From: Candidatus Gastranaerophilales bacterium
GTDB taxonomy: Bacteria > Cyanobacteriota > Vampirovibrionia > Gastranaerophilales > Gastranaerophilaceae
Assembly: GCA_944326475.1 (NCBI GenBank)
Contig: CALVEC010000006.1
Location: 62,001-126,000 of the forward strand
Reading direction: 5' to 3'
Length of the DNA: 64,000 nt
Position 1 is the stretch's first letter. The number at the start of each line of letters is the position of its first letter. The position numbers and the translations under genes are program-made. Below are positions 5,806 through 37,399 of the stretch, in pieces. Below the pieces are notes generated by a model. That model was not told the DNA's origin, did no database searches, and saw only the letters and a program-made list of their open reading frames with translations.

Positions 5806-6959
5806 TATTTTAAACTTTCAATTATTAAAGCGCAAATTCTTTCTGCCTCAGACTCTTTCAAATCAACATACAAAGGAAGACAAGCTATTCTTGAAGAAAT
5901 ATCCTCGGATATCGGACAAGCCTCATAATCGTCTAAGTACGGAAGTTTGTTCAAGCTCGGATAAAAATATCTTCTCGGGAAAATATTGTGTTCATTTAAT
6001 GTCTTAAACACCTTAAGAAGCTGGTTTTCATCTTTGAACACAACCGGGTAATATGCGTAGTTATACAAAAGATTTTCCTGCTGTTTTGGTCGTTGCACAT
6101 AACCTGATAAAAGTTTGTCATACAGATTACTCAATATTTTTCTTTTGTCTATTATTTGACTCAAATAAGGGAAATTCGCAAGCCCCATTGCAGCATTGAA
6201 CTCAGACTGTTTCGCATTTATGCCGAGACGTATATGCTCGTCAGCATTATGTCCGAAACGTTTTATGAGATTCAGTTTTTCGGACACAGCCTTGTCTTTT
6301 ATTATACAAGCCCCGCCTTCTATCGTATGATAGAGCTTTGTAGCGTGGAAACTGCAAGTGGAGATATCTCCATAGCTGACCAAAGAACGTCCTTTATAAA
6401 CTGACGCAAAGGCATGAGCCGCGTCATATATAACTTTTAAATTGTATTTGTCGGCAATTTTTTGTATTCCCTCCACGTCACAAGCATATCCAAAAACGTG
6501 TACAGGCATAATTGCTCTGGTTTTCGGGGTTATTTTTTCTTCGATTTTATTGACATCAATTGTAAAATTGTCAGGTTCAATATCAACAAATACAGGTTTG
6601 CAGCGTTCCCAGAGAATGGAACTCGTTGTCGCCACATAAGAAAACGGAGTGGTAATAACTTCTCCATCCTCAATACCGAGTGCTTTTAAAGCGATTTGTA
6701 TTGCAACTGTTCCGTTTGTGACAAACTGAAAGTGCTCAACTCCAAGATATGCGGACAATTTTTTCTCCAGCTCCCCAACCAACGGTCCCTGGTTTGTGAG
6801 TTGACCGTTCTCAAAGATTTTTGCAACGTAGGCATTATATTCTTCTAACGGGGGCAGAAAAGACTTCGTAACAAATATTTTTTCCGTATGTTTTGTTTGT
6901 TCATTTTTTGCCGATAAAACCATTGAATCTGGTTTAGATTGAAGTCCTTGTCCTAACAT
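5805..6959 (-). CDS. DegT/DnrJ/EryC1/StrS sugar aminotransferase
   Basis: A 384-residue PLP-dependent enzyme that aminates keto-sugars attached to nucleotides, usually to make amino-dideoxy sugars for O-antigen, capsule or protein glycosylation. Visible landmarks are NGQLTNQGPLVGELE at the N-terminus, TNGTVAIQIALKALGI (cofactor phosphate binding), VYDAAHAF-type VIYDAAHAFASVYKGR, and the Schiff-base lysine in SFHATKLYHTIEGGA. Length is normal for the family. The start has only a weak ribosome binding site (CAGG 13-14 bases upstream); M13 is a possible alternative. It heads a two-gene operon with the glycosyltransferase-like gene. Given the flagellar genes nearby, flagellin glycosylation is one possible use, but that is inference. 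Confidence 0.9.
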   Translation of the reverse strand: MLGQGLQSKPDSMVLSAKNEQTKHTEKIFVTKSFLPPLEEYNAYVAKIFENGQLTNQGPLVGELEKKLSAYLGVEHFQFVTNGTVAIQIALKALGIEDGEVITTPFSYVATTSSILWERCKPVFVDIEPDNFTIDVNKIEEKITPKTRAIMPVHVFGYACDVEGIQKIADKYNLKVIYDAAHAFASVYKGRSLVSYGDISTCSFHATKLYHTIEGGACIIKDKAVSEKLNLIKRFGHNADEHIRLGINAKQSEFNAAMGLANFPYLSQIIDKRKILSNLYDKLLSGYVQRPKQQENLLYNYAYYPVVFKDENQLLKVFKTLNEHNIFPRRYFYPSLNKLPYLDDYEACPISEDISSRIACLPLYVDLKESEAERICALIIESLK

Positions 6960-15446: not shown

Positions 15447-15475
15447 TTGCGAATCTTATATCAATGTGATATACT
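15447..15475 (+). promoter_or_regulatory. Promoter of the giant fliD-like gene
   Basis: TTGCGA (15447-15452), a 17-bp spacer and TATACT (15470-15475) with the extended -10 TGA in front. It fits a housekeeping sigma promoter about 120 bases before the cap gene start. A TAAA...GGATAA pair at about 15490-15518 faintly resembles a sigma-28 site but with wrong spacing. Confidence 0.55.
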
Positions 15476-15521: not shown

Positions 15522-15605
15522 ATGAAAGACTGTGTAATCTTACAATGGCATATTGAAAAATATGACCTCTTACTTGTGGTGAGAGGAGTTTTGCAATGGA
15601 CATAA
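15522..15605 (+). CDS. Possible 27-residue leader ORF overlapping the fliD-like start
   Basis: An ATG preceded by AAGGATAACGC opens a 27-codon frame that ends at a TAA (15603-15605), ten bases inside the cap gene. Its last codons cover the cap gene's ribosome binding site (GAGAGGAG). The arrangement would allow translational coupling or attenuation. The peptide has no recognisable features; the frame could be chance. Confidence 0.3.
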   Translation: MKDCVILQWHIEKYDLLLVVRGVLQWT

Positions 15606-18600
15606 GTATTTACTCAAACGGTCTTTCATCAAGAAATGCTTCCATTTCATCACTTGTTAACAATGTGCTTTACAATAAACAGAAAAGCGCAAACTCCTTA
15701 GGCTCTGCTTCATCACTCGGTTCGGGAGGAGAGGGAAGTGCTTATGCAAACCAGATAAACAGCTCTTATGTAGAGTATTTGGAGAGTTTGCAAAAAACTA
15801 TTGACGATTTAAACAAAAGTTCATCATCAGTGATGAACAAACTCGGCACGCTGTCGACTGTAAAAAGCTCATACAGCAGAACTGTTTCATCACTCGACGA
15901 CTTCATTAACAGCGTAAAAAATTCAAGCGCATCGTCCGTTCTGGACATATTCAACACAAACAGCTCTGCTGTAAACGGTGAGCTGATTAGCAGCAACGTA
16001 AATTCACAGCGTATTGAATATACGGTAAAGCAGGTTGCCACGGCAACACAGGCAATAAGCAGCCAGCTTAAAGGCGTAAACATCGATGCAGAGACAAAGA
16101 TTGTCGACTTATTTGCAGGAAGTTTTGACGGAAAAAGACTCACTTCAACAAGAACAGACCTGACAGGCTCAATGACAATGAGCCGTCTGGGTGTAACAAC
16201 AGGGACCTTTGAACTCGGCGGAAATCTAATATCCGTAAAAGGCTCAGACACAATCGACGATGTCATTGAAAAACTTCGCGTAAACGGTTACAAAGCCGGA
16301 TTTGACGCATACAACCACTTCTACATAGAAGCTGAATCCGGAAATTCAATGAAAATAACGAATCAGAATACGAATTTCGGCGACATAATGGGGCTTACAA
16401 TGTCAGAAGGCTCCTTTTCGATAAACGGTCAGGAATTATACATAAACAAAGACACAACACTGAACAGCCTGCTTTCTACAATAAACTCCGACTCAAAATA
16501 CGGAGTAGGCGCAATGCTGAAAGACAATAAAATCACATTCATTGCAAACAGAACAGGCAACGTGCTGATTGAAATAAAAAAAGGTACCAGCAATTTCACA
16601 AACGCAATCGGATTCACGGAAGGCGGAAGCATGAACACCGGCAGCCTTGTCATAGGCAACGACGGTACAGCCCAAAAACTTTCCGGAAATACAGCAATAA
16701 ATGCAGACTCAACAGGCTACACAACCGGCACCTTTAAAATAACAACAACATACAACGGAACAGAGCAATCCGCAATTATTACAATCGATGAAGACGACAG
16801 CATAAATGATATTATCAATAAGGTCAACAATTCAGGAATCGACGTTTCTGCAACAATCGAAAACGGTGTATTTGAACTTGTTCAAAACAATAAAGGCTCA
16901 GGTTACACCATAACAGTAGAAGCCGGCACAAGCGATTTTACTGAATTTGTAGGAATGACGGAAGGCACACAGTCTACAGGCATACTTTCACCGGGGCTGG
17001 ACGGGGATTATTTTACACATACGACAGGCACAAAAGAGATTACAGACATAACAACAGCAGGAGTAGTGACCGCCGGCTCATTTAAAATTAACGGAAAAAC
17101 CATACAACTAAAAGGCGGCAGTATTGAAGAAGCATTAGCGGAAATAAACCAGTACAGTGAAGAACTGAACATTGTTGCAGAATACAAAGACAATCACATA
17201 ACTATAAGAAACCGTTTAACCGGTGCAACCTCGCTTTATATCGAGGGCGGCACGAGCAACTTTGGAGAAATCACCGGACTGACAACGGAAAGCGTCGCAT
17301 CCTCAAACTTTACGGCAGGCGCAGAAGGTTCCGCATCAACCCTTACCGGAACAGAGGTCATAAGCACGGCGACCGAAGTCGGCGTATCAACCATTAAAAT
17401 CAACGGCATTACAGTAAACATTGCGGAAGGCACGATTGAAAGTGCCCTGAAAAACATAAACGCAGTATCTGACAAAACTTATGTAGAAGCTTCTATTGAC
17501 GACACCGGCAGACTCGTTTTAACTGAAACACGCCATGGTTCACTGCCTATTTCAGTTCAGGACGTAAACGGCAACTTCGGACAAATTACAGGCATAATAG
17601 GCTATCAAGTAGTCGCAGGGGAAGAAGAAAAATACGGCTCGACAAAAACAACTCTCACTACAGCCAACTCCGTGTCATACGGAACACAGATTATGAACAG
17701 CACCGTTGTTGTTAACGGCTTAACAATCGGCGTAGGCACCAACATTTCAGAGGCGCTGAACGCAATCAACGCCCACTCCTCTGCAACCGGCGTTGAAGCT
17801 TTCTTAAACGACGAAGGCAGACTTGTTTTGAGAAACATTGAGGCAGGAACGGGAAATATTTCTTTCCAGATTACCTCAGGGGACCTCGGACGCGTAGTAG
17901 GCGCCGGCACCTACACAACAATAGACGGTTCAAACAGCCATGTAGAAATCCAATACGCCAGTGTAACAGGCGGAGTAACAGGATTGGACGATTATTCGCA
18001 GGTTTTGAAAGGTTCAACCCTGACCATCGGCGGCATAACAATGGATATGGGCGAAACCATAAAGGATTGTATAGACATAATCAACGCCCGTAAAGACGAA
18101 ACAAAAGTTGAGGCAAAACTCACATCAACAGGTCAATTCCAGCTTGTAGCAATCGATGACAGTATCGAAAACATCACCTATACAATAGGTGGTGAAGGCG
18201 ATTTTGGCAGGGCAACAGGACTCGGCACATACGAAATACAGGGCAATGCCCCTGACGGCACGGAACCTCCGGCGCCAAACGCTGTTAAAATGCAGGGTGC
18301 AGCGGACAATCTCACCGGAAATATTCAGGTCATCAACGGTACAATCAAGATTGCAGACGGCGCAGAGATTGACGCAACTGGAAAGACTATTGACGAGATT
18401 ATTGATGAAATCAACAACCTCGGACTTTCCGGAGTTTCCGCGTCACTTGAAGACGGAAAATTCACAATTGTGTCTATGGGAACAGACGTACCCAAAGTTA
18501 CCGTAACAGGAGATCTTGCAAGAGTCACGGGCATGGCGTCATACTCAACCGGCGGCGCAACTGTCACAAACACCCCCGGTGCACCCGGAGGAGCAGACAT

Positions 18601-21600
18601 AACGGTTGTTCACCTGCAAGGTCAAAACGCCTCAATGACCGAGGACACAGAAATTGTAAACGGAAGCATTACCGTAAACGGAAACAAAATAGACACTGCC
18701 GGAAAAACAATCGGTGAAATTATAGACGAGATTAATGACCTTGGACTTACCGGAATTACAGCGTCAATAAAAGACGGAAAATTCACTATATCCGGAGCTG
18801 ACACAGTTCCGAGCGTCGAAGCCTCCGGCGATTTTGCGCGCGTAACAGGCATGGCGGAACACATAGTCGGAACCGGAAGCAGTTCAAACGTTGTAGACGA
18901 AAACACCGAGACATATACAGTTATAAAAGGTTCAACAATACTGCTTACAGAAGACATTATTTCAGTAGGCGGAACGATAAAAGTCGGAGATGGCGCGGAG
19001 ATAGACACGACAGGTAAAACGCTCGGACAGATAGTTGATGAGATAAACGCACAGAATATACCAAACCTCACAGCCTCTCTCACAGACGGACAGTTCACCA
19101 TCAAAGTCAAAGGTGCAAATGCCCCGACAGTCACAGCGACAGGCGATTTTGCCCGGGTAACCGGACTGGCTTCATACGTAATCGACGCCGGCACAAGCTC
19201 TACGACTCCGTCAGTTGTATATACCCAAATGCAAGGCGCAACAACTACTCTTGACGGCTCTGAGGTCTTGCTCAACGGTACGGTCAAGGTCGGAGACGGA
19301 CTGGAAATAAACACGAAAGGTCTGACAATGCAGGAGGTTGTTGACGCAATCAACGACCAGGGACTTGACGGAATAACAGCGTCAATCAAAGACGGCGCCT
19401 TCACAATCATCAGTGAAAACGGCATGGTCGATGTCACGGCAAGCGGTGATTTTGCGAGAGTGTCAGGTCTTGCAGGCTGGGGCACGACAGGAAGCAGCAC
19501 CTCCAGCACTTCTGCACAGGAAAAGCCGCCGACCTATATGACGATAACCACAATGCAAGGTCAGAATGATTCATTGAAAGGAACCGAAAAATTTGTAGGC
19601 GGCAGCATACAGATAGACGGAAATGCTGTAATTGACACGGACGGCAAGACGCTCAATCAGGTTATCTCAGAGATAAACGCCCAGGGTATTTCAGGAGTAA
19701 CAGCTTCCATAAAAGACGGAAGATTCACAGTCACAAGTGAAAGAGGAGAAGTTGCAGTAATAGCCTCCGGCGACTTTGCGAGAGTGACAGGACTTGCAAG
19801 CTACACAATATCGGGCGGAAGCTCTGCGGATGTAGAACGCCCCATTATAACCGTACACACCTACGAGGGAGAAGCGCAGAACCTGACAGGTACTGAAATG
19901 CTGGTAAGCGGCTCTGTCACAATCGGCGATAAAACAGTAAACGCTGCGGGAAAAACCCTCGCAGAGGTGGTTGAAGAACTGAACGCACTGGATATTGAAG
20001 GCGTTCAAACCGCGATAGTCAACGGAAAATTCACCGTCACCAGCACAAACGGCGAACTTCAAATCGACGCGGAAGGCGACCTGTCGAGAGTTTTGGGCAT
20101 AGGCGATTATGTAGTTTCCGGCGGCTCGTCTTATGTCATAATGAAAGGTCAGGAAGACTCGCTCACGGGTTCTGAAAAAATAGTCGGCGGCATATTACAA
20201 ATCGGAATAGACAATATTAACGTTGCCGGCAGAACACTGCAGGAGATAGTCGATGACATCAACAGCCGCGCTGAATATACAAACTTTACAGCAGCTATAA
20301 CCGACGGCAGATTCACCCTGACATTTGAGGGCGAAGCAGTAGAAGTCATAGCCACAGGCGACATTGCAAGGGTAACGGGCTTTGCAACATACAATCCGGA
20401 AGATGCAACGATAGAAAGCACCCCCGGAGTTTTGATAACGACTGTTCAAGGCTCAACATCATCCCTGACAGGCAACGTGACTGTTTTAAACGGTACATTG
20501 CAGATACAGGGCGGCACGGCAATCGATACAAAGGGCAAAACCCTTGACCAGATAGTTAGCGAAATAAATGCTCAGGGCTTAGATGGTATAACTGCTTCCA
20601 TAAAGGATGGAAAGTTTACTATAGAAAGTACAAATGGTGTTCCTTCAATACTTGCGACAGGCGATTTTGCTCGAGTTACAGGCATGGCTGATTATACTGT
20701 TGACAAGGCTGATGTAGATGTTGATGTTCTCACAATAACAAGACATGTTGGTACAAATTCTTCTCTGACCGGTGTTGAGTATATATTGAGCGGAAGTATA
20801 AAAGTTGCTGAGGGTGCTGAGATAAATGCCAAAAACAAGACACTGACTCAGATAGTTGATGAAATTAATAAACTTGGTCTAGAAGGAATAACAGCATCAA
20901 TCACAAATGGTAAGTTCACAATTGATAGCACTAGAGGAGTTGTTTCAATTGTAGCAACGGGAGATTTTGCACGTGCTACTGGTATGGCTGACTATACGAT
21001 AGGTCCGAGTAGTTTGACTACAGTAAATGGAGTAACTACTATTACAGGGTCTGTTGACACAAGAGAGTTCGATGATGCACCTTTTGCCGGCCAAAAAAGT
21101 GGAACTATTACATTTTCTAATGGTCAAACTATCAATGCAATACTGAATTCTCGTTCTCAAATTTTACAAGAGATAAATAGGCTATCTGGCGTTCACGCTG
21201 AAATTGATGAAAATGGGCGCATAGTTATATCCAGTGACAGAAATATTACTATTGTCTCAGACACTACAGGTTTTTGCCAGTTCTATGGTTTGCTAGATGA
21301 GTCTACGACTTATTCTGGTTCGATTGAAACTACAGAAATTACACCATCTTTGCCGGTAAAGGGAGATTTTGTAACTCCTGTATACAGATTGAGTGAAGAA
21401 GAAGCAATTGCTCAGGGTTACACTGTTATTAAGACTGTGCAGGATTTGAATAATATAAGATATAACTTGGATGCAGATGGAAATGTCATAGGAAAATACA
21501 TCCTTATGAATGACATAGATCTTTCTTCTTTTGCAAACTGGGATGCAATAGGCGGAGTATCAGGTTATACGTATGCAGATAGTGTTACTAACGGATTTGC

Positions 21601-24600
21601 AGGTGTGTTTGATGGAAATGGTTATACTATTAGTAATTTGAATATCAACAAAAACGATGAAATAGCAGGTCTGTTTGGTGCAATATATGGTGGGGAGGTA
21701 AAAAATGTTAGTATAGTAGATGCAAATGTTACAGGCAAAGGCGTTGCAGGTATATTGGCTGCTGTAAATGCAGCAGGAACAATTTCGAATGTTTATACAT
21801 CAGGCGAAGTAAACATTATTTCTAATGGTAGTAGTATACTTGATTCTGGTACAGGATATAACGGAGCAGCAGGCGGTATTGTTGGGTATGATGTCAGTGA
21901 AGATTATGGTGTGCATAATATTCAATCTTCAAAATCTTCTGTTAAAATTAGAGGAATTGGAGATGCAATCGCTGGTGGTGGTATAGCTGGATTGCTATTT
22001 GGAGGGGGAATCCTAAATTCTTCGGCTTCTGTTGACATACAAGATGTTAGAACTGTTGGTGGTGTTGTTGGTAGTGGAACACTTGGTCTTATCCAAAAGT
22101 CTTCTGCAACAGGTACTGTAGATGGTGAAGTTGCTGGTGGTTTAGGCGGAAATGGTATTTTAGTTATTCAAGATTGTTTTTCAACAGTTAATGTTAACAG
22201 TTCTGATATTGCCGGTGGTATAGCCGGAAGAGTTGGTGGAGCTATAGTAAATTCTTATGCTTCTGGTTCTGTATCTGGTGTAACAGCTGGTGGTCTTTTT
22301 GGTGATTACATTGGAGCTGGGTGGGATTTTTCGATATCTAATTCCTTCTGGGATATCGAAAAAACAGGGCAGGCAACATTTGGTGATTATTCTACCTCTT
22401 CTATTGACTGTACAGGTCTCACTACCGAAGAAATGTCTGAAAAACAGAACTATATCGATGCAGGCTGGGATGAAACTGTTTGGGATTTGTCAACTACTAC
22501 ACCTACACTTAGAGCACCTAACCCGGGTCCATCTTCATTAGACAAATATTTTAACACGACTATAACAGGTTCAGTCAGTGCAAATGAGTATGCTGACCAT
22601 TCGTTCTGGGGTCAAAAAGACGGAGTCTTGGCATTTTCTGATGGAACGACGGTAAATATTTCAGCTACAGATTCGCGTTCACAAGTTCTCCAAAAAATTA
22701 ATGCAGCAGGTTTAACCGCAGAAATAGATGAAAACGGAAAAATAAAAATATTTAGTTCTGGCAATATATCAATAAGTTATGATACATCTGGATTTGCTGA
22801 ATTTTATGGACTTACTTCTGTTGAAAAAACTTATGAAGGCTCTATGTCCGTTTCTGAAGTTACTACTCCTTCGTCACCTACAACTGGTACAGGGTCAACT
22901 TTAATAGGTACTGTTGATGTGAGAGATTTAACGGGCGAAGCGTTCTTCGGTCAGAATAGCGGCAGGATTGAATTCTCAGACGGAACAGTTGTGGAGATTG
23001 ATGCTGGCGATGATTTGAACACAGTCTTACAGAAAATTAACGATGCCGGACTTACAGCATTTATCGACGAAAACGGTAGAATAAATATCCATTCGGACAA
23101 AACAGAATACCTCAGAATAGATGTTGATAGTACTTCTGGATATCCATCTGATGATATATACATGAGATTTAGTGAGTTCTACGGACTTGCCACGAAACAA
23201 CCGATAAGAATTTTTCAGAGTAATGAATCCACTCTTTCTGGCGATACAGAAATCAAAGACGGCTCTGTAACTATTTATTTTGGCAATGATGAAGATAGTT
23301 ATGTTACCGTTTCAACAGCAGGAAAGACTGTTGAGGAGATAGCAGAAGAATTACAGCAAAAACTTGATTCTCGATATGATTATGAACTTCAAAAAAATAA
23401 AATTTCAGTAGAATTTAAAGACGGACGCTTTTCAGTAACGAGTATAAATGACATAACCAGAGTAGAAGTCACGGGTGATTTTGAAAAGGTTATTGGCGGT
23501 ATTGATGAAGTATACTATGCTCCCGAAGAAAAATCATTGAAAATTGAAGGCTCTGTAAACACACTTACGGGTGATGAAAAAATTATCGGGGGATATATTT
23601 CAATTAGAGGTTATACAGTAACAACATACTCAAAGACCCTTAATGAAATAGTTGACCAGATTAATGCACTGGGAGTTGAAGGTGTCAAAGCGTACATAAA
23701 AGACGGCGTATTTACTGTCCTGACAAATGCAGGTATCAATGTATCCGCATACGGAGATTTCGCCAGAGTGACGGGGATGGGTGAATATAGTGTTGAGGCA
23801 GCAAAAAAAGTTGGCAAATTATCAGAGTCTGAAGCAATTTCCCAGGGATATACTGTCATAAAAACAGCCTCTGACCTTGCTTCTATAAGCAATACAAAAA
23901 ATAAAAAATATATTCTTATGAACGACATAGACCTTTCATCGTATGGAAACTGGTCGGGCATAGATCTCACTAATGCAGTATTTGAGGGTAACGGCTATAT
24001 GATAAAAAATCTGACAGGCTCATCCCTCTTCAATACAGTAACAAAATCACAAATATACAACCTCGGGCTTGAAAACGTCAATGTTACAGGAACATCTAAT
24101 ATCGGTGCACTTGCCAAAACAATGAAAGATACTGATGTCGATACTCTTTACATTTCAGGTTCTGTCACAGCAACACAGTACGGGGCAGCAGGGGTCGTCG
24201 GTACTGTAACAAATTCTAATTTTGACACAACAACTTTATACAATTTATATATAGATGTTGATGTAAATTCTCTGGGACAGGGTGTTTCTTCAGACAGCGA
24301 AGAAGGCAGCGCCGCAATTGCGTATGATTTTGATGGAAATATAGGTTATTCTTACTTTACCGGAACTGTATCGTCTTATAATAAAGCCACGGCTTTTATA
24401 GGCAAAAATACTTCAACAGGCAGTTATGCCAATGCAAATATATATAATAGTGTATATTCTTCTGTTGTTTCCGGTTTTGACAAGGCTACATTATTTGAAT
24501 GTTCAGGAGCCAGAGGTTTAAACGATTTATCACTTGAAGAATTACAAAATCCTGCTAATTATAAAAATTTTGATGAAACAGTATGGGATATTGAACATGG

Positions 24601-30600: not shown

Positions 30601-33600
30601 TCAAGTGCTTCAAAAAATCAACGACGCCGGAATGCAAGCTTCAATTAACTCAAACGGAAGAATTGAAATCACAGCAGACGGCACGCTTAACCTCAAAGTC
30701 ACCTCCGACAACACCGGATTCAGCAATGTCTACGGACTCGGCAGCAGTCTTGTATTTAACCCGGGTTCTATCACCACAGACACGGAAATCATACAGGGCA
30801 CGCAAGGCGGCGCCTCCAGCTCAACAATTACCGGTGCCGTTGACACAAGAGACTTTGCAGACGCTCCGTTCTGGGGTCAAAAAGACGGCACAATAAACTT
30901 CTCCAACGGTATTTCTGTCGCAATTTCAGCAACTGACACAGTTTCTAAAGTACTTGAAAAAATGAATGCTGCAGGTTTACAGGCTTCAATTAATGCTGAC
31001 GGAAAAATTACAATAACCGCACAAAACACTGACAGCCTTAACATCACCTCTGACACATCCGGTTTTGCGGATTTCTACGGCATATCAGTTTACGGCGGCG
31101 CGTACACAGGCTCTATTACAACAACCGGTATTGTCACCCCGACAACCCAGATTAGAACATACAGTGTTCAAGCTGCCGGCGGCACAACATCAAACGGTGA
31201 AAACATCGGTCAGACATTCTCTAAATTGACCGGTACAAACAACGTCACAAACACAACACAGATACTTGAAAGTATTATCACTATTTCATACAAAAACGAT
31301 GCCGGTGTTGACACATCAAAAACCTACACCCTCAAAGCCGGCACCCTCCAGTCTGCTATGGACACAATCAACAACTCGAACTGGTACGTCAAAGCTCAAA
31401 TCACGGAAGACGGAAAATTCGAGCTGATAAGCCGTGCAGTCGGACCGTTTGACATAAAAATAAGCATGGAAAAAGTCGACGGTGTAGCCGGAGACTTCGG
31501 ACGCGTAGTCGGCATGGCTACCCAGACAACACTGAACGGCGACCCATCTCAGGAAAGAAAAGACCCCGCAACTATTACAGGCGGCACGTCAGGTCTTACC
31601 CTTACCGACCAGATTGTCGGCGAAAACTCCATAACTATCTGGATGACAAGAGAACGCCCCGGATTTACCGGTGTTGACACAATGACCGGCACTGGCGACC
31701 TTGCGTCCGTATCCCAAACAATTACCTTCCGCGACTCCAACGGCGACGGAAAAATAACCATCGCGGAAGCTATTGACCAGATTAACGAAAAAGCTTCAAC
31801 CACAAAAGTTAAAGCCTCCTTAATAAACGGACAGTTTGTTCTGACCCAGATTGACGACCAGAATGCGGACGACAAAGCTAAATACAACACCAACGGCGGT
31901 GCAAACACCGCAGGTGAAGGCGACACAATTAAATACACAATTCAGGGCACGGGTGATTTTGAACATATCACAGGTCTCGATGCCTACTCTGTTGCCGCCT
32001 CTACAGCAAACACGGAAAAAGGCGACGACAACGGCTACCACTACCACGCTGTTGTTAGCTCTACCGTTAAAAACGACGGCGGCACAATAAAATCCGGTTC
32101 CGTAAACCTTAACGGAACGATTGTGGATGTTTCGGGATTGACCGTACAGGGCGTTATTGACAAGATTAACAACAACTACTCGAGCGTTGCAACCGCAGGC
32201 TGGGACAACGGAAAACTGGTCATTATGCTTAAATCACAGTCCTCCTCGGCATCTTCCGCAACATCTGCGGCAGCCTCCGTTACTGCAACCGGAGACGCCT
32301 CAAGAGTCCTCGGGCTTGCCGGTTATTCAATATCCTCAGGTGATGTAACCGCCGGTGTTTACAGAAACCACTGGAATTATTCGTATGATGTATGGTCACA
32401 AAAAACTGATGACTGGGATTTGTCTAAAGATTATGCAGGCTCGGATTCTTACAACTACAGTACAAGTCTTGAATACGGTACAACTTATGAGTACAGATAT
32501 CAGGATGAAGTCTGGACATCAAGAACATGGGGTGCAAGCACCACAAAATCAACCTTCTCCGGCGACAGATACCGCAACCAGTCCTATTCAAGCTCCGTTG
32601 AAACAAACAAAACCGTTCATACGACTGGAACAAGTTATGGTACGTCTGTTCAAACAAATACTTCTACAAGGACAACTGGAACTACTTATGGTACATCAGT
32701 TTCGGGAGGAACTACAACATGGGTTACTGTAGCTACGGATACAAAGTCTCATTTGGGTGAACAGGGTTGGGTTCTAGATTCCAACACTGGTATTTGGGCT
32801 AAACTTGAACGAACAACAACTCCAGGCTCTACTGTAACAACATCAACTACTTACCAGACAAGTGTTTCTACCTCATACACTACTCATACTACCTCAACTA
32901 CATATTTGACTTCCAACGAAACGAATTATACTACTTGGTATTCAGGTTCTTATGAAGAACGTACACAAGACTCCGCCTGGTCTACCAGAGACACCGGATA
33001 CGGAAACACCATCTCCGACCCGTCTGACAGGGTAAGAAACCAGCACGTATACTCACGTACATGGTACTACGAAACATACTGGACAAAAGATTATTCCACA
33101 AGTTACAACACCGAAACAAAAGAAGGATACTACAATGCCCCCGGATTCAAATACTCCGTCGGACAAACTTACAGAAACGTATCCTCAACCCACGTAGTTG
33201 ACCAGTACACCAACGGAAAAATAGAAGCGTCGACTTCATACAATTCATCGACTTTCAACACCCACTTCGGCGGTCAGCAGGGCGGAACGATTACCATAAA
33301 CTCCTCTTACTTCGGAAACATTGCATCGTTCTCCTACTCCTCCACAACTTCCATAAACTCCATACTCCAGTCCCTGCGTAACTCGACAGGTATTGAGTCT
33401 GTAAGCTCTGACGGTACGACTATCGTTACAGACGGTTACTACGGAAAAGTCACTATCTCCGATACAGGCAACGCTGCAAAACTCCTCGGTATTGCGACAT
33501 CCGGCACCAACGGTTCCGCCAACAGAACAAACAAATCCGACGACGATTGGAACGGTATTACTAAAAAAACTGATACTCTGACCGGCTCCCGTACAGACCT

Positions 33601-36600
33601 GTACGACGACTTCTCGTTTGCACTGCAAGAAGGCGGCTCCTTCGACCTGTATCTCGGCGACAGGTTACTAAAAACTATCACCTACTCCGCAGGTTCGACC
33701 ATAGACTACATCTTGAATCAAATGCAGGGTACCTATGTCTACGACACAGGAAAATACATTACAGACCCCTTCTCTGACAAGCTGTACGATGAAGAAGAAT
33801 ACGATCTCTACGGCACAGCCTATACGGATTCGTCCGGCAGAATCTACTATACTGCCTCTTACTCGGCTAAACTTGACTCTCAGGGCAGAATAGTTATAAC
33901 CTCCGATGTCTACAATTCAGCTCAGTCTGAAACAATCTCCGTTAAAAATGACACCGGCAACTTTACTCACCTCGCCGGTTTAACCTCAAACGGACATAAC
34001 TATGCAGAAAATAATGACCCCGTCATTGAATCTTACGGCTACGACAGACTCACAGGTTCCGTTAAAAACCTGACAAAAGGACATCTGCTCGGAAACCTTA
34101 AAGCGGAAACCTTCCAAATAACAGGCGGCAACGGAACATTCAATGTTTCCATAGATTCAACTGACACAATTCAGGATATCATTAATGAAATCTTCTCCCA
34201 AACAAACGGCGCCTACAAAGCCGACCTTGATGAAGACGGAAGATTCTACATTGAATCCACAATCCAAACACCTACCGACACGCAGGTTACGGCGACAGAC
34301 CTCACCGAACGTCTCGGGCTTGTAGCTGCCGACCGTTCGACAGGTCCGGCGTCCCAAACCGAAACCGGCGACCAGGGCTACTTTGTCTTTGAAACCGACG
34401 GAGGCGGGGTTTACGGAATGAAGCCAAACTCAATCTTCACAGGACTCAAAGACGGACAATTGACTTTCACACTCCATGCCAGAGAATCGACAGGTGAAAC
34501 CGGCAGTATCACTTACCGTCCTGATATTACATACACAATAGATATTGTATACAACGACACTGTCACATCTGTATTAAACAAGATGAAACAGGCAATACTT
34601 GCGGGTGAAGACGACATCTGGGAACACGACGACGTTACAGATGAAAACCGTGCTGACAGAATAGACTTCCACGTAAACTACGATGAAACAAATAACCTCG
34701 GAAAAATTTATCTGCAGATTATTGGTAACTACGCGTCAGCAATAACATTCGACAACGACACGTCCGGATTCGTTGAAATGGCAGGGCTGTCCAAAGACGT
34801 TACGATATACGATGCCAATTACACATCAGAATCCAGAGGTCCGGGAAAATCACAGCTCACAGGCTCTGTTTCCAACCTTAGCGCAAACCACATCTTTGGT
34901 TCAATGACAGCAGGCTCAATGACTATCTCTGCCGGTTCAACAACCAAAACAATCGACGTTCTCTCCACAGACCGGATTCAGGATGTTATCGATAAAATTA
35001 ATGAAGGCGGTATATTTGAAGCCGGACTTGACAACCTCAACAGGTTCTGGATTAAGACTGTCGGGCAAAATGCAAGCGACATAACCATCTCAGGCACAAC
35101 AGACTTCTACAACCTTGTCGGTTTAAAGGGCAACACCTGGACATACAACACAACTACAGAGCTTGGCTCTCTCGGTTACTCAAAAATAACCGGCTCTGTC
35201 TTCGGACTCACGACAGACAGAACATTCAACAACATGACCTCGGGTTCATTCTCGATTAATGCCGACGGTCACAGAACGCTGAATATAGATGTCGAGCAGG
35301 GTGTAACCTCTGTCGGCGACGTTATTGACTTTATTAACAACAGCGCTGACAGTGACTTTACGGCATCGCTCGATGATTCCGGCAGAATTGTTATTTCTAC
35401 AAAAATTGACAACGGAGCAACTATCTACATTAACGACGGCACTACGGATTATGCAAAAATACTCGGTCTGACAGCCGGTACATTAGGAGGCAACGCAGTA
35501 GGTGTCAACGGCGCCAATGATATTTACGCTACTCTTACCGGTTCAACAACAGGTCTCGACAATTCAATGAGATTCTCGGCGGGCGATTTCATTATCTCCG
35601 TTACAAATCCTGACGGACAAAAGCTCTCGCAAACGTTTACCCTTACAGGAAACGAAACACTCGCAGATATATCAAGCATGATTTCTAACTCAAATCTCGG
35701 AATCTCAGCTGTTATGGATGCATCCACTAACAGTTTGTCTCTGCGCTCGAAAAATGCAGGAAATTATATTATTGAAGTAACTGACGGAACATCTGACTTT
35801 GCGGAAACCGTCGGATTCACAAGAAACGGTGCACAGGCAAATCCGTCACAAATCGGCTCGTTGTCTACGCTTACATCAAATTCAACAGTACATAGTGCCC
35901 AAACACTCGGTTTCAGCGCCGGAGACTTCTTTATAAATCTCGTTAACACAGACGGCTCAATCTCCGACTCGCTGCGTATTGAAATCTCTCAGTACGACAC
36001 AATAGACTCAATTATAAGCAAGATTAACAATTCAGACTTTGGCGTTGCAGCGACCATCAACGCGGACGGAAAAATGGTTCTGACCCGCACGGAAACAACC
36101 ACCGCAGGCGGTATCTCCGTGACCAAAGGCACAAGCGATTTCACAAACAAAATCGGCTTCACCTCCGGCGGAAATCTCGGCACCGGTGCGCAGATAGAAA
36201 ACGGTGTTGACGCCGAAAGAACAGTGATTACAAGCAACGAAATTGCTGTGGCAAATCCGACTGTATCTCTTTCAACAATAGGTATAACCGCCGGTAACTT
36301 TAAAATTAACGGTGCAAATATTAATGTTACCGAAAATGACTCTATTGCTACACTGTTAGGCAAAATTAACGCCGCCTTCTCAACCTCTGACCCGAACGGA
36401 GTTTACGCAGAATTTATAAATGACAGAATCGTACTGACCTCCAACTCTGCGTCGGGAGATGCACGTATTAATATAGAAGCAGGTACGACGAATTTGACGG
36501 ACATGATTGGCTGGACATCAGGTTCCAATATTGTTCAAAACTCACAAACCCTCGGCGACAACGCAATATTTACTCTGAACGGTCAGGAGTTTGAAACACA

Positions 36601-37399
36601 ATCAAACATTGTTTCTCTGGACAAACACGGCAATCTTGTCGACACAGACAGTTCCGCAGAAGCAATAAGACTTACACTTAAAGCAACCGGCTCCGGCACA
36701 ATCGATATCGGCAAAAACTCGGTAACCACAGCATTCAATAAGCTAAACACTTTTGTTAAGCGGTTTAACGAAGCAATGGGACTTTCTCAAAATAAGGTCT
36801 TTGAAGATGATGCTTCATTTGAGGCGCTCATCGTCAACATTAAAAAAGCCCTCACGGACAACGTCGGCACATACAGGCAGATTCAGCGCCAGATGTCTGA
36901 TATCGGCATCAATGTGGCAATCTCGGGCGGAACCTCCTCGTCTGACGGCAGAGTAACTATCTCTCTCAACAAAGACAAGTTTATAAACGCGTTTATGAAT
37001 GACCCCGACAAAGTCAAAGGTATTCTCATAGGCAACGACAGAAAACCGATTAATCACTCGGAGGCAGGCACTTTCACAAGACTCAGAGAAACACTCGACG
37101 AATCTCTGCAAACAAACGGATACTTTGCTTCAACATCAAGACTGCTTGAAGCCACAAACAAATCACTATTGAATGAAATAACATTGAATACAAACGAGCT
37201 TAACAATGTTAAAGCTTCTATGGCATTTGAACAAAATTCACTCGGTGCAAATCAGGCAGAACTTGCTGATTTCCTTGCTCAGCTCGAAGAACAATACGAA
37301 GCGGTTAACAACATGATTGACAAGTTAAAATATCAGTACAATCAATCGCTTACAAGGCTTGTCTTAAACCCCGGCGGAAATACGCTTTTGAACGGTTAA
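15596..37399 (+). CDS. fliD: Giant modular FliD-type flagellar filament cap protein
   Basis: A single open frame of 7,267 codons. The ends are those of FliD (HAP2), which caps the filament and guides flagellin folding: residues 1-340 hold the coiled N-terminus (YVEYLESLQKTIDDLN) and hook-IN repeats (TGTFELGGNLISVKGSDTID), and residues about 6990-7267 the C-terminal domain (KFINAFMNDPDKVKGILI, then a terminal coil). Usual length is 450-700. The insert contains about 14 copies of a ~95-residue module (KTLxxIxxEIN...GDFARVTGxA), about 13 of another (TGSVDxxxxxxAFWGQKDG...SDTSGFAxFYGL), four GLUG-type domains, and a Tyr/Thr/Ser-rich stretch. Repeats look like expanded hook-IN motifs. AGAGGAG precedes the ATG. 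Codon use changes in patches. Confidence 0.85.
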   Translation: MDISIYSNGLSSRNASISSLVNNVLYNKQKSANSLGSASSLGSGGEGSAYANQINSSYVEYLESLQKTIDDLNKSSSSVMNKLGTLSTVKSSYSRTVSSLDDFINSVKNSSASSVLDIFNTNSSAVNGELISSNVNSQRIEYTVKQVATATQAISSQLKGVNIDAETKIVDLFAGSFDGKRLTSTRTDLTGSMTMSRLGVTTGTFELGGNLISVKGSDTIDDVIEKLRVNGYKAGFDAYNHFYIEAESGNSMKITNQNTNFGDIMGLTMSEGSFSINGQELYINKDTTLNSLLSTINSDSKYGVGAMLKDNKITFIANRTGNVLIEIKKGTSNFTNAIGFTEGGSMNTGSLVIGNDGTAQKLSGNTAINADSTGYTTGTFKITTTYNGTEQSAIITIDEDDSINDIINKVNNSGIDVSATIENGVFELVQNNKGSGYTITVEAGTSDFTEFVGMTEGTQSTGILSPGLDGDYFTHTTGTKEITDITTAGVVTAGSFKINGKTIQLKGGSIEEALAEINQYSEELNIVAEYKDNHITIRNRLTGATSLYIEGGTSNFGEITGLTTESVASSNFTAGAEGSASTLTGTEVISTATEVGVSTIKINGITVNIAEGTIESALKNINAVSDKTYVEASIDDTGRLVLTETRHGSLPISVQDVNGNFGQITGIIGYQVVAGEEEKYGSTKTTLTTANSVSYGTQIMNSTVVVNGLTIGVGTNISEALNAINAHSSATGVEAFLNDEGRLVLRNIEAGTGNISFQITSGDLGRVVGAGTYTTIDGSNSHVEIQYASVTGGVTGLDDYSQVLKGSTLTIGGITMDMGETIKDCIDIINARKDETKVEAKLTSTGQFQLVAIDDSIENITYTIGGEGDFGRATGLGTYEIQGNAPDGTEPPAPNAVKMQGAADNLTGNIQVINGTIKIADGAEIDATGKTIDEIIDEINNLGLSGVSASLEDGKFTIVSMGTDVPKVTVTGDLARVTGMASYSTGGATVTNTPGAPGGADITVVHLQGQNASMTEDTEIVNGSITVNGNKIDTAGKTIGEIIDEINDLGLTGITASIKDGKFTISGADTVPSVEASGDFARVTGMAEHIVGTGSSSNVVDENTETYTVIKGSTILLTEDIISVGGTIKVGDGAEIDTTGKTLGQIVDEINAQNIPNLTASLTDGQFTIKVKGANAPTVTATGDFARVTGLASYVIDAGTSSTTPSVVYTQMQGATTTLDGSEVLLNGTVKVGDGLEINTKGLTMQEVVDAINDQGLDGITASIKDGAFTIISENGMVDVTASGDFARVSGLAGWGTTGSSTSSTSAQEKPPTYMTITTMQGQNDSLKGTEKFVGGSIQIDGNAVIDTDGKTLNQVISEINAQGISGVTASIKDGRFTVTSERGEVAVIASGDFARVTGLASYTISGGSSADVERPIITVHTYEGEAQNLTGTEMLVSGSVTIGDKTVNAAGKTLAEVVEELNALDIEGVQTAIVNGKFTVTSTNGELQIDAEGDLSRVLGIGDYVVSGGSSYVIMKGQEDSLTGSEKIVGGILQIGIDNINVAGRTLQEIVDDINSRAEYTNFTAAITDGRFTLTFEGEAVEVIATGDIARVTGFATYNPEDATIESTPGVLITTVQGSTSSLTGNVTVLNGTLQIQGGTAIDTKGKTLDQIVSEINAQGLDGITASIKDGKFTIESTNGVPSILATGDFARVTGMADYTVDKADVDVDVLTITRHVGTNSSLTGVEYILSGSIKVAEGAEINAKNKTLTQIVDEINKLGLEGITASITNGKFTIDSTRGVVSIVATGDFARATGMADYTIGPSSLTTVNGVTTITGSVDTREFDDAPFAGQKSGTITFSNGQTINAILNSRSQILQEINRLSGVHAEIDENGRIVISSDRNITIVSDTTGFCQFYGLLDESTTYSGSIETTEITPSLPVKGDFVTPVYRLSEEEAIAQGYTVIKTVQDLNNIRYNLDADGNVIGKYILMNDIDLSSFANWDAIGGVSGYTYADSVTNGFAGVFDGNGYTISNLNINKNDEIAGLFGAIYGGEVKNVSIVDANVTGKGVAGILAAVNAAGTISNVYTSGEVNIISNGSSILDSGTGYNGAAGGIVGYDVSEDYGVHNIQSSKSSVKIRGIGDAIAGGGIAGLLFGGGILNSSASVDIQDVRTVGGVVGSGTLGLIQKSSATGTVDGEVAGGLGGNGILVIQDCFSTVNVNSSDIAGGIAGRVGGAIVNSYASGSVSGVTAGGLFGDYIGAGWDFSISNSFWDIEKTGQATFGDYSTSSIDCTGLTTEEMSEKQNYIDAGWDETVWDLSTTTPTLRAPNPGPSSLDKYFNTTITGSVSANEYADHSFWGQKDGVLAFSDGTTVNISATDSRSQVLQKINAAGLTAEIDENGKIKIFSSGNISISYDTSGFAEFYGLTSVEKTYEGSMSVSEVTTPSSPTTGTGSTLIGTVDVRDLTGEAFFGQNSGRIEFSDGTVVEIDAGDDLNTVLQKINDAGLTAFIDENGRINIHSDKTEYLRIDVDSTSGYPSDDIYMRFSEFYGLATKQPIRIFQSNESTLSGDTEIKDGSVTIYFGNDEDSYVTVSTAGKTVEEIAEELQQKLDSRYDYELQKNKISVEFKDGRFSVTSINDITRVEVTGDFEKVIGGIDEVYYAPEEKSLKIEGSVNTLTGDEKIIGGYISIRGYTVTTYSKTLNEIVDQINALGVEGVKAYIKDGVFTVLTNAGINVSAYGDFARVTGMGEYSVEAAKKVGKLSESEAISQGYTVIKTASDLASISNTKNKKYILMNDIDLSSYGNWSGIDLTNAVFEGNGYMIKNLTGSSLFNTVTKSQIYNLGLENVNVTGTSNIGALAKTMKDTDVDTLYISGSVTATQYGAAGVVGTVTNSNFDTTTLYNLYIDVDVNSLGQGVSSDSEEGSAAIAYDFDGNIGYSYFTGTVSSYNKATAFIGKNTSTGSYANANIYNSVYSSVVSGFDKATLFECSGARGLNDLSLEELQNPANYKNFDETVWDIEHGLPTLRIFNSSVLYGSLNAADLSGEAFYGQKTGVLEFSDGTKINIEATDSLNTIMNKMQAAGLETKILGYNAGKYDGNLLISSKNTDNLYVVSDTTGFADYYGLADGKVYTTGESVSITDTPDDLYKPSVSEETYLQTTYLTGTVSVSGVADEAFYGQKDGVLTFSNGATVNISASDTRSDVIEKIRLAGFMVNYNADNEIELSSTTEKVISVISDTSGFAGFYGLLSTNSNYSGSISTSQETTNTVTMQGAADSLTGNEKFVSGTIEICDSVIDAAGKTLNQVIDEINALNIEGLSVSLKDGRFTIESTTGIVNVQATGDAARVTGISSYIVENVSAPNKNFVNTVESISEEEAIAQGYTVIKTAEDLLKINDNLSGKYILMNDIDMVSVSDFVPIGGTNGFSGLFDGNGYVIKNLTINDTTSESVGLFGTNQGTIKNVGLENVNVTGNGSTGALVGANLLTGIISNSYASGAVTCTNSEENVTGSAGGLVGANVFGGTISDSKSSGTVISKGYAGGLVGMNGAATIKNSYSTSSVSGTTSGGLVGFFIGQDGGNGLGAISNSYATGSVNGTENAGGLIGGIETQDVTNIINSYATGSVTGNNYTGGLVGYADNNTVFTNTFWNSNSTGQENAVGYDLSAGEGRTDISDFSDPSVFINAGWSEDIWDFSGDAPTIKDQNADAAAKDIVTIIGSVDTSGFTGEAFYGQKSGTISFSDGTNVTIGANDDLNTVIQKINDAGLTAEIDESGRIFISKEGAKNLSVASDNTGFAAMYGLHNTDTVYSGGIETTFEEADTVPESSTLTGSVSVSDLNDAAFWGQTTGTITFSNGVSVSISATDSRSDVIEKLNNAGLTASIDENGYITITAKDTADLKITSDDTGFSGFYGLAETETNYSGSSSISTIQEEIIVDVNTIMQGSQTSLTGSELVLGGTLKVGNGTVIDATGKTIQQIVNEINAQKLTGITASITDGRFTITSENGEVAVVATGDLARVTGLDDYVVDRVTADDADVTLITRYTGSSTGLTGNETIVGGTIKVGNGAEIKTKGKTLQQIADEINAQSISGITATITDGKFTIDSKNGSVSIAVSGDFARVTGMGDYTVSSVNSSTSNGQTTITGSVDITGLSGGAFYGQKDGIITFSDGSTVEVSSTNTLLQVFLKLNASHLDRSVSVIDGKITITGREGLSIVSDTSGFSQYYGLMSTDTTYSGEMKVEEVLVAASGSNTYQGDFITPINRLTEEQAIAQGYTVIKTAADLNNIRNNLSGKYMLMNDIDLSGIDWDPIGDSNSDDIIFSGVLDGNGYVIKNLKVNTTDKAAGLFGAVSESGAIRNIGVTDADVSGYGYAGIIAGTALGEISNVYTSGDVNVIACTEDNDYFINRGDIKGAAGGIAGLTVNVTASHSTVNLSGSGDLVSAGGISGWQTGGAISKSYATVAIENVYSGGGIAGYIFMSYVSESFAAGNINSTNRAGGITGMNAGLIADSYSLTSVSAGEAAGGIAGIGTGISNSYAAGTVSGLKTAGIAVDHSAFSIGDISNSFWDIDKTGQTEGYQADQNGSLPTVTNVEGMTTSEFANAQTFIDAGWSEDIWDFSGSAPTLKFMNTASSGGSTGGGSADTFTSSLTGSVDADSLADRAFWGQKDGVLTIHVEGPTGNHDVNINISASDTRSQVLQKLNNAGLTAELDADGRIKISSDNALSLEITSDTSGFADFYGLSETGITYSGFTTTTADDILTPATSTLTGGVDVRDYLDRAFWGQKDGVLKFTNGMSINISADDNRADVLSKLNAIEGVTAIINTDGKIQITAENAQDLMVESDTSGFADFYGLSTTGGIYDGGINSTDITVDEGESTLTGSVNTFELSGDAFWGQNSGTITFSNGASVNIDANDNLITVLQKLNDAGFRALINTDGKIEITAQGVSDLTVTGDSSGFANFYGLKTESTLYEGTQSQETQLADANADTSSTLTGSVDTRTFSGGAFYGQQSGSITFSNGVSVNISATDTLAQVLQKINDAGMQASINSNGRIEITADGTLNLKVTSDNTGFSNVYGLGSSLVFNPGSITTDTEIIQGTQGGASSSTITGAVDTRDFADAPFWGQKDGTINFSNGISVAISATDTVSKVLEKMNAAGLQASINADGKITITAQNTDSLNITSDTSGFADFYGISVYGGAYTGSITTTGIVTPTTQIRTYSVQAAGGTTSNGENIGQTFSKLTGTNNVTNTTQILESIITISYKNDAGVDTSKTYTLKAGTLQSAMDTINNSNWYVKAQITEDGKFELISRAVGPFDIKISMEKVDGVAGDFGRVVGMATQTTLNGDPSQERKDPATITGGTSGLTLTDQIVGENSITIWMTRERPGFTGVDTMTGTGDLASVSQTITFRDSNGDGKITIAEAIDQINEKASTTKVKASLINGQFVLTQIDDQNADDKAKYNTNGGANTAGEGDTIKYTIQGTGDFEHITGLDAYSVAASTANTEKGDDNGYHYHAVVSSTVKNDGGTIKSGSVNLNGTIVDVSGLTVQGVIDKINNNYSSVATAGWDNGKLVIMLKSQSSSASSATSAAASVTATGDASRVLGLAGYSISSGDVTAGVYRNHWNYSYDVWSQKTDDWDLSKDYAGSDSYNYSTSLEYGTTYEYRYQDEVWTSRTWGASTTKSTFSGDRYRNQSYSSSVETNKTVHTTGTSYGTSVQTNTSTRTTGTTYGTSVSGGTTTWVTVATDTKSHLGEQGWVLDSNTGIWAKLERTTTPGSTVTTSTTYQTSVSTSYTTHTTSTTYLTSNETNYTTWYSGSYEERTQDSAWSTRDTGYGNTISDPSDRVRNQHVYSRTWYYETYWTKDYSTSYNTETKEGYYNAPGFKYSVGQTYRNVSSTHVVDQYTNGKIEASTSYNSSTFNTHFGGQQGGTITINSSYFGNIASFSYSSTTSINSILQSLRNSTGIESVSSDGTTIVTDGYYGKVTISDTGNAAKLLGIATSGTNGSANRTNKSDDDWNGITKKTDTLTGSRTDLYDDFSFALQEGGSFDLYLGDRLLKTITYSAGSTIDYILNQMQGTYVYDTGKYITDPFSDKLYDEEEYDLYGTAYTDSSGRIYYTASYSAKLDSQGRIVITSDVYNSAQSETISVKNDTGNFTHLAGLTSNGHNYAENNDPVIESYGYDRLTGSVKNLTKGHLLGNLKAETFQITGGNGTFNVSIDSTDTIQDIINEIFSQTNGAYKADLDEDGRFYIESTIQTPTDTQVTATDLTERLGLVAADRSTGPASQTETGDQGYFVFETDGGGVYGMKPNSIFTGLKDGQLTFTLHARESTGETGSITYRPDITYTIDIVYNDTVTSVLNKMKQAILAGEDDIWEHDDVTDENRADRIDFHVNYDETNNLGKIYLQIIGNYASAITFDNDTSGFVEMAGLSKDVTIYDANYTSESRGPGKSQLTGSVSNLSANHIFGSMTAGSMTISAGSTTKTIDVLSTDRIQDVIDKINEGGIFEAGLDNLNRFWIKTVGQNASDITISGTTDFYNLVGLKGNTWTYNTTTELGSLGYSKITGSVFGLTTDRTFNNMTSGSFSINADGHRTLNIDVEQGVTSVGDVIDFINNSADSDFTASLDDSGRIVISTKIDNGATIYINDGTTDYAKILGLTAGTLGGNAVGVNGANDIYATLTGSTTGLDNSMRFSAGDFIISVTNPDGQKLSQTFTLTGNETLADISSMISNSNLGISAVMDASTNSLSLRSKNAGNYIIEVTDGTSDFAETVGFTRNGAQANPSQIGSLSTLTSNSTVHSAQTLGFSAGDFFINLVNTDGSISDSLRIEISQYDTIDSIISKINNSDFGVAATINADGKMVLTRTETTTAGGISVTKGTSDFTNKIGFTSGGNLGTGAQIENGVDAERTVITSNEIAVANPTVSLSTIGITAGNFKINGANINVTENDSIATLLGKINAAFSTSDPNGVYAEFINDRIVLTSNSASGDARINIEAGTTNLTDMIGWTSGSNIVQNSQTLGDNAIFTLNGQEFETQSNIVSLDKHGNLVDTDSSAEAIRLTLKATGSGTIDIGKNSVTTAFNKLNTFVKRFNEAMGLSQNKVFEDDASFEALIVNIKKALTDNVGTYRQIQRQMSDIGINVAISGGTSSSDGRVTISLNKDKFINAFMNDPDKVKGILIGNDRKPINHSEAGTFTRLRETLDESLQTNGYFASTSRLLEATNKSLLNEITLNTNELNNVKASMAFEQNSLGANQAELADFLAQLEEQYEAVNNMIDKLKYQYNQSLTRLVLNPGGNTLLNG
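18280..21020 (+). repeat. Nine tandem ~95-residue modules inside the cap protein (type A)
   Basis: Residues about 895-1808. Each unit follows the pattern (M/V)QG...(S/N)LTG(N/S)E...(G/N)GT(I/L)K(V/I)G(N/D)GAEID, then GKTLxQIVDEINAQG(I/L)xGITASIxDGKF, then GDFARVTGMAxY. Five more copies are scattered later (around 23220, 23540, 25340, 27345 and 27640). The pattern resembles the hook-IN motif of FliD repeated and lengthened. Confidence 0.75.
21385..22530 (+). other. GLUG-type domain 1 within the cap protein
   Basis: Residues about 1930-2312. Opens with EEEAIAQGYTVIKTVQDLNN and KYILMNDIDLSS, then many short GLUG-like beta-helix turns (AGLFGAIYGGEVKNVSI, AGGIVGYD, AGGIAGRVGGAIVNSYA) and closes with FWDIEKTGQ and NYIDAGWDETVWDLST. 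This lies in a patch with T-ending codons unlike the preceding modules. Confidence 0.7.
23815..24625 (+). other. GLUG-type domain 2 within the cap protein (reduced)
   Basis: Residues about 2740-3010. Same opening (SEAISQGYTVIKTASDLASI, KYILMNDIDLSSYGNW) and same closing (FDETVWDIEHGLPTLR), but fewer and more degenerate GLUG turns than the other three copies. Confidence 0.65.
25645..26625 (+). other. GLUG-type domain 3 within the cap protein
   Basis: Residues about 3350-3677. Canonical turns such as SVGLFGTNQGTIKNVGL, AGGLVGANVFGGTISDSKS, AGGLVGMNGAATIKNSYS and TGGLVGYADNNTVFTNTFW, closing with FINAGWSEDIWDF. Closest in appearance to the domain in the flagellin at 56180. Confidence 0.72.
28300..29395 (+). 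other. GLUG-type domain 4 within the cap protein
   Basis: Residues about 4235-4600. Opens EEQAIAQGYTVIKTAADLNN and KYMLMNDIDLSGIDWDPIG, nearly the same words as flagellin 2 (DLENIRNNLSGKYILMGDID, NWDPIG). Bases 28620-29230 within it have T-rich synonymous codons, with a sharp return to C/G-ending codons near 29235. Confidence 0.7.
32350..33240 (+). other. Tyr/Thr/Ser-rich low-complexity segment within the cap protein
   Basis: Residues about 5585-5882 are dominated by Y, T, S and W, with runs such as TTGTSYGTSVQTNTSTRTTG and YQTSVSTSYTTHTTSTTYLT, and paired aromatic motifs (YEYRYQDEVWTSRTW, YEERTQDSAWSTRD). It breaks the hook-IN/GLUG module series. Such tracts in surface proteins can be stalks or glycosylation targets; that is inference. 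Confidence 0.6.

Follow-up and report, generated by a model that had tools for sequence, protein, structure and literature searches.

Giant accessory relatives of the flagellar cap protein FliD in some flagellated gut Gastranaerophilales

Some flagellated gut Gastranaerophilales carry one or more giant relatives of the flagellar cap protein FliD, up to ~11,000 amino acids (aa) long, beside a normal cap protein. FliD is a small cap protein, usually of 450–700 residues, of which 4–6 subunits sit at the tip of the flagellar filament after export by the flagellar apparatus. The giant described here is encoded in a window of 64,000 nucleotides (the whole stretch of DNA that was analysed) from a genome of 2.14 Mb in 35 contigs with an estimated completeness of 98.65% (G000). 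Its gene occupies positions 15596–37399 of the + strand of the window and forms an open reading frame of 7,267 codons with an ATG start and zero internal stops. The interpretation that we favour, with a probability of roughly 60%, sees in the protein an accessory paralogue of FliD that probably leaves the cell through the flagellum and whose D2 head, through expansion, serves as a long fibre or adhesin where the filament ends. The FliD relationship is read from the sequence; the location, export route, fibre shape and adhesion are what we infer from it.

Tandem Repeats Finder detects no DNA-level tandem repeats in the giant gene, and the longest exact internal repeat measures 22 bp. The modules described below thus repeat at the protein level in diverged form, short reads are able to resolve them, and a collapse or misjoining of repeats is unlikely. 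Intact relatives of 3,012–11,051 aa in independent genomes also speak for a sound assembly.

The C-terminus of the protein is of the FliD type, and the N-terminus probably so. The C-terminal domain (36554–37327) matches Pfam FliD_C (PF07195) with 35.2 bits at a cut-off of 25.4, and the C-terminal profile of the giants aligns with the canonical FliD of the same bacteria over 221 columns (hhalign, probability 99.2%, E = 3.5e-19). The FliD_C score of the giant is low compared to that of normal FliD (35 vs 123 bits), and a search of PDB sequences with the C-terminal profile of the giants gave no FliD match. For the N-terminal region (residues 1–200, 15596–16195) Pfam returns no FliD_N match in the 7,267-aa protein itself; the 5,922-aa relative encoded in genome G008 scores 28.4 bits, above the cut-off of 24.8, and the relative in G175 scores 18.6 bits, below it. 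When the N-termini of this clade are compared with those of normal FliDs, residues ~65–156 align (hhalign, probability 92.6%, E = 4.6e-7), and the first ~60 residues of the giant show no alignment to normal FliD. Judged from these alignments, the N-terminus of the giant is probably a diverged FliD_N with an insertion of ~40 aa near its start. The assignment of the two ends to FliD rests on the Pfam match to FliD_C, on hhalign at both ends, and on the FliD_N match above the cut-off in G008.

The region between the two ends consists of 46 hook-IN modules interrupted by four GLUG domains, so that the beta-rich D2-type head found between the helical ends of FliD is present here in 46 copies. Modules 1–7 (16202–18238) are of a FliD-like type C, and their order is kept in 4/4 same-genus orthologues. 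They are followed by a tandem array of type A modules (8–16, 18338–21001), which belongs to the variable middle of the protein, and by a single type B module (17, 21101–21292). The first GLUG domain, recognized by Pfam and by HMM, covers residues 1931–2309 (21386–22522). Modules 18–21 (types B, B, A, A; 22622–23797) separate it from the second (residues 2741–3009, 23816–24622), modules 22–24 (B, B, A; 24695–25600) lead to the third (residues 3351–3681, 25646–26638), and modules 25–29 (B, B, A, A, B; 26729–28204) to the fourth (residues 4237–4601, 28304–29398), all these assignments being made with HMMs. The variable middle ends with the type B modules 30–34 (29561–31093). Modules 35–37 (31316–32332) open a conserved C-side block, which continues past a tract rich in Tyr, Thr and Ser (residues ~5580–5896, 32333–33283) with modules 38–46 (33284–36520). 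The whole protein contains 8 cysteines in 7,267 residues.

This layout agrees closely with the original prediction, which had described a single unbroken frame with FliD-type ends, four GLUG domains, a Tyr/Thr/Ser-rich tract, and about 14 type A and 13 type B modules in addition to separate late hook-IN units. Sorting by eye again yields ~14 type A and ~13 type B modules. All three kinds of unit are present, but iterated HMMs started from type A, type B and late seeds converge on one superfamily of 46 copies, and the division into kinds dissolves to that extent. The modules belong to Flagellin_IN (PF07196), which Pfam places above its cut-off in 4/4 parts of the giant; the normal FliDs of these bacteria have one or two such modules.

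Structure prediction supports the same relationship. The last hook-IN module, taken from a predicted model, can be superposed on the D2 domain of FliD from E. coli with Z = 11.2 and 1.9 Å over 96 residues. An AlphaFold model of three type A modules from the array 8–16 (pLDDT 73 overall, ~75–95 within modules and low in the linkers) consists of three separate beads, and single type A beads superpose on FliD D2 with Z = 8.4 and 2.7 Å over 95 residues; outer domains of flagellins match them as well. The model of the last 607 residues has a modest pLDDT of 66. Its ten best fold matches in the PDB are all flagellar cap or filament-tip entries; the TM-scores are low, since the beads have no fixed mutual arrangement. 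The combination of FliD-type ends with modules that superpose on D2 indicates a FliD with a multiplied D2 domain, and the proposal that a native hook-IN motif was expanded and GLUG domains inserted into the series is supported. Other architectures find no support in the sequence. Pfam detects neither Flagellin_N nor Flagellin_C in the giant, with a whole-genome Flagellin_N search giving other loci only, and no repeats or anchors of type I, autotransporter or LPXTG adhesins; inspection by eye shows no Sec-like hydrophobic stretch at the N-terminus.

The giant is not the only cap-type protein of this organism, and its earlier reading as the cap itself is not supported. G000 encodes elsewhere a separate normal FliD of 473 aa with both FliD_N and FliD_C above their cut-offs, together with FlgK, FlgL and an FlhA above its equivalog cut-off, and a normal FliD is present in every giant-bearing genome that was searched for FliD_C. 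Another contig of G000 carries a second giant, 3,980 aa in length. Of a third, only a C-terminal remnant of 358 aa is left (L043, C11:63652-64728), flanked by the same neighbours as an intact 6,203-aa copy in the same-genus genome G002.

Named relatives mark the organism as a Candidatus Gastranaerophilales bacterium. Among 383 genomes of its family, strong matches to the N-terminus of the giants are confined to two genera. Three other genomes of the same genus contain orthologues of 11,051, 8,903 and 3,012 aa. The second giant, which lacks GLUG domains, has a constant length of 3,980–3,981 aa in 4/4 same-genus genomes and stands head to head with the first giant in three. Complete giants of the sister genus range from 3,827 to 6,553 aa; in five of its genomes (G008, G244, G294, G302 and G313) the giant gene immediately precedes normal fliD and shares its strand, and in G175 another gene lies between the two. 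All candidate family members shorter than 1,200 aa are cut by contig ends. A phylum-wide search for FliD_C added giants of 1,300–6,600 aa from three more genera, whose genomes likewise encode a normal FliD of ~580–640 aa, and the N-termini of 5/5 of these giants that were tested are textbook FliD_N. In a tree of FliD_C sequences the giants of the window's kind (g1/g6) form one clade (support 100/100) placed among FliDs of the same bacterial family on a long stem branch of 1.54, and the other giants form one clade of their own (99/98). That gigantism arose twice is not established, since the tree test does not reject a topology that unites all giants (p-AU = 0.099).

Comparisons among the same-genus orthologues divide the protein into a conserved core and a variable middle. 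Modules 1–7 and 35–46 pair one to one with modules of the orthologues at 85–100% identity in G002 and G003 and 61–91% in G001. The 3,012-aa orthologue consists of those 19 modules alone, joined where the others hold the middle of A, B and GLUG units; modules 35–37 of the window's giant are 90–100% identical to its modules 8–10. Most of the Tyr/Thr/Ser-rich tract falls in a segment that is 91.7% identical to the orthologue in G003. As these alignments define it, the core comprises both ends and ~19 modules, and the module and GLUG middle varies among orthologues and is missing in one. For the ends, dN/dS among orthologues is 0.02–0.06, a ratio of which only the direction is safe given that dS is at or near saturation there; by this measure strong purifying selection acts on the two ends. 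Several modules in the group 25–29 are 92–99% identical to G002, and modules 24, 25, 27 and 28 have dS values of 0.10–0.26 in that comparison, compared to 1.3–1.5 at the ends. The low dS in the middle suggests recent module exchange. The GC content at third codon positions, ~0.45 in the giant, falls to 0.21–0.26 over residues 2001–3000, which span parts of the first and second GLUG domains.

The same modules are used by flagellins of G000. GLUG inserts occur in eleven flagellin genes or gene parts; the insert of a 611-aa flagellin within the window (56180–58015, + strand) is a GLUG domain of the giant's kind, and a flagellin on contig C12, cut by the contig end, has an insert with the order A-A-A-A-B-GLUG-B. 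The modules being common to both, the giant and the flagellins draw from a single pool of surface modules. The C12 gene (L112, C12:1-3374) may be one half of a very long flagellin, the other half of which would be the C-terminal flagellin part that lies near the end of C11 and has type B modules (L043, C11:73821-74867).

The flagellins are diverse in their own right. The 2.1 Mb of G000 contain 23 Flagellin_N matches, divided into a plain kind of ~270–316 aa and an insert-bearing kind of up to 1,435 aa. The longest, the neighbour of the giant gene at 37789–42096 (– strand), carries an insert with DUF3060 repeats and nine GGxGxD motifs, compared to 0.3 expected from shuffled sequences, and this RTX-like insert is possibly calcium binding. 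About ten flagellins have a poly-G/C run of 8–12 where the N-terminal D1 part meets the insert; they include the 1,435-aa protein, with a 12-bp tract from position 41630 (read on the + strand), and genes on contigs C2, C4, C14, C16 and C21 (L103, L104, L108-L111, L113 and L114). Among genes that are otherwise alike, those with 11 keep an open frame (665–667 aa) and those with 12 have a broken one (165–173 aa), which looks like slipped-strand phase variation of the flagellin inserts. The giant gene in G000 contains no G/C run as long as 7, on which ground homopolymer phase variation was rejected for it.

Upstream of the giant gene lies a promoter-like element, TCAATGTGATATACT (15461–15475, + strand), found in exact form only upstream of giant genes. 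In the conserved stretch around RTRTCAATRTGATATACT that precedes the giants a dyad, ATATCA-ATG-TGATAT, overlaps an extended –10 sequence, TGATATACT, and at the window's giant a TTGCGA is located 17 bp upstream of TATACT. All 15 of 15 exact sites of the 15-mer TCAATRTGATATACT are upstream of giant genes (11 genomes, two genera); the exact 15-mer has zero occurrences in 11 other genomes and is absent upstream of flagellins and of normal fliD. Since those genes lack the element, the giants are not simply co-regulated with them. A search for sigma-28-like promoters upstream of giants and flagellins gave none above the level of shuffled sequences. In the giants of another genus (g25; L133, L134, L137 and L140) the shared upstream stretch is not this one but TATGCTATAMTA with TATATAAA after it.

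A promoter-like element of the giants' own, absent from flagellins, together with the divergence of their FliD ends, would fit a FliD-derived surface or matrix protein that is secreted, by the flagellum or by a different apparatus, and ends up free or on the cell surface and not on the flagellum. A candidate apparatus exists. A second FlhA-like protein (~700–730 bits) occurs in 50 of 52 genomes tested, one of the matches being partial, in flagellated and non-flagellated genomes alike and even in those lacking FliD, and its neighbours are FliF-like and FliI-sized proteins. The 52 genomes are Gastranaerophilales-related, and nearly all of them also encode a separate ~490-aa protein that matches the cytoplasmic part of FlhA; the G000 loci for the apparatus and this protein are L100 (C20:10607-17705) and L101 (C1:106386-107858). 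The distribution of the giants points in the other direction. Of the 22 giant-bearing genomes 21 encode flagellar FlhA (~815–880 bits), the remaining one being 85% complete; of the 6 genomes without FliD none does. Giants occur only where normal FliD and, apart from that incomplete genome, flagellar FlhA are present, genomes with the second apparatus alone have no giants, and in G104 and G291, which carry giants, the second FlhA gave no match. Strong purifying selection at both ends and the adjacency of giant and fliD genes in the sister genus also argue against a protein that has left the flagellum. We therefore regard a shed or cell-attached surface protein as unlikely, though the best placed of the alternatives. 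A narrower idea would make the giant the cap belonging to the second FlhA-type system; it is disfavoured by the absence of giants where only that system occurs. On the distribution of the two FlhA proteins, export of the giant by the flagellar route is favoured over the second apparatus.

Altered FliD-type ends could compete with normal FliD, and a dedicated promoter would permit separate timing. The giant might then be a terminator, a late variant that takes the place of the normal cap, ends elongation of the filament and anchors the cell, or else it might sit elsewhere along the axis, for instance at the hook–filament junction. This scenario leaves the extreme and variable middle unexplained, and we give it a rather small chance. 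It is still less probable that the gene is a silent store of surface modules, drawn on by recombination to renew the inserts of flagellins: the A, B and GLUG modules common to giant and flagellins and the contrast in dS between middle modules and ends from different species, a sign of exchange, fit such a role, but frames of 7,000–11,000 aa are kept open in several species, the ends are under purifying selection, the promoter-like element is conserved, and the 3,980-aa paralogue keeps a constant length and has no GLUG domains. That the giant is an assembly artefact or a decaying gene can be practically dismissed, for although the related genomes are metagenome-assembled and one giant locus of G000 is a mere remnant, exact repeats do not exceed 22 bp, many independent genomes have intact giants, and dN/dS is far below 1.

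We return to the interpretation of the giant as an accessory FliD paralogue with a fibre-like head. In its favour count the matches of the ends and modules to FliD, the flagellar genes of giant-bearing genomes, the adjacency to fliD in the sister genus, the selection on the ends, the module pool common with flagellins, and the published work on P. aeruginosa and H. pylori cited below. Against it count the missing FliD_N match and the unaligned first ~60 residues, the low FliD_C score, the long stem branch, the modest pLDDT of the models (66 and 73), the lack of a sigma-28-like promoter, the promoter-like element that flagellins and normal fliD do not have, and the second FlhA-type apparatus, which could be the exporter. 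The conserved N- and C-terminal parts would be kept for export and docking. The chain would leave the cell unfolded via the flagellar type III apparatus, and its FliD-type ends would dock it at the filament end, either by itself, in a mixture with normal FliD, or following normal FliD. The D2 head, in the form of 46 bead-like copies interrupted by four beta-helix-like GLUG domains, would serve as a spacer and binding chain, with the GLUG domains as additional binding elements. A bead of the FliD D2 type measures ~3–4 nm, which for this number of beads gives a rough length of ~150–200 nm. The displayed middle could accordingly be a flexible chain of perhaps that length, binding host or food surfaces or glycans, and its A, B and GLUG portion could be a rapidly exchanged binding cassette supplied from the pool of flagellin inserts. 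In its broadest form, which we put forward tentatively and hold to be somewhat short of an even chance, the giants would be a novel kind of fibre at the flagellar tip, in which chains of thousands of residues, up to ~11,000, are threaded unfolded through the channel and a FliD-type base displays a long, rapidly reshuffled modular adhesin; with the same cassettes on phase-variable flagellins, the whole flagellum would be a reconfigurable binding organelle.

Several known systems resemble parts of this arrangement. Compared to FliD/HAP2 (FliD_N PF02465, FliD_C PF07195), the giant has a homologous C-terminus, a probably homologous N-terminus and modules of the D2 fold but is 10 to 20 times longer, with 46 D2-like modules plus GLUG domains and the N-terminal insertion, and it is additional to the normal FliD. 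In Pseudomonas aeruginosa the head of FliD is replaceable and the terminal parts are needed (PMC8533109), and FliD of strain PAK acts as an adhesin (PMC8306008). The FliD of Helicobacter pylori has extra domains D4 and D5 similar to D2 and D3, a likewise enlarged head, although with two extra domains compared to ~45 in the giant (PMC8306008). Giant flagellins, filament subunits of at least 1,000 aa with Flagellin_N/C ends, are a further parallel in that a flagellar protein has its exposed central part enlarged by internal domain duplication and inserts; the present protein differs by its FliD ends and is several times longer (PMC6248924). It also resembles the huge bacterial surface proteins, a class above 5,000 aa with repeats and a presumed role in attachment, the survey of which does not mention flagella or FliD in its main text (PMC11573180). 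We found no description of giant FliD paralogues in the open-access literature searched.

The accessory giants are a new size extreme within the known FliD family. Accessory FliD paralogues of 3,000–11,000 residues would stretch the presumed export limit of the flagellar channel, and such a family would turn the filament tip into a long-range binding device. The family also makes the exchange of modules between cap-like proteins and flagellins testable.
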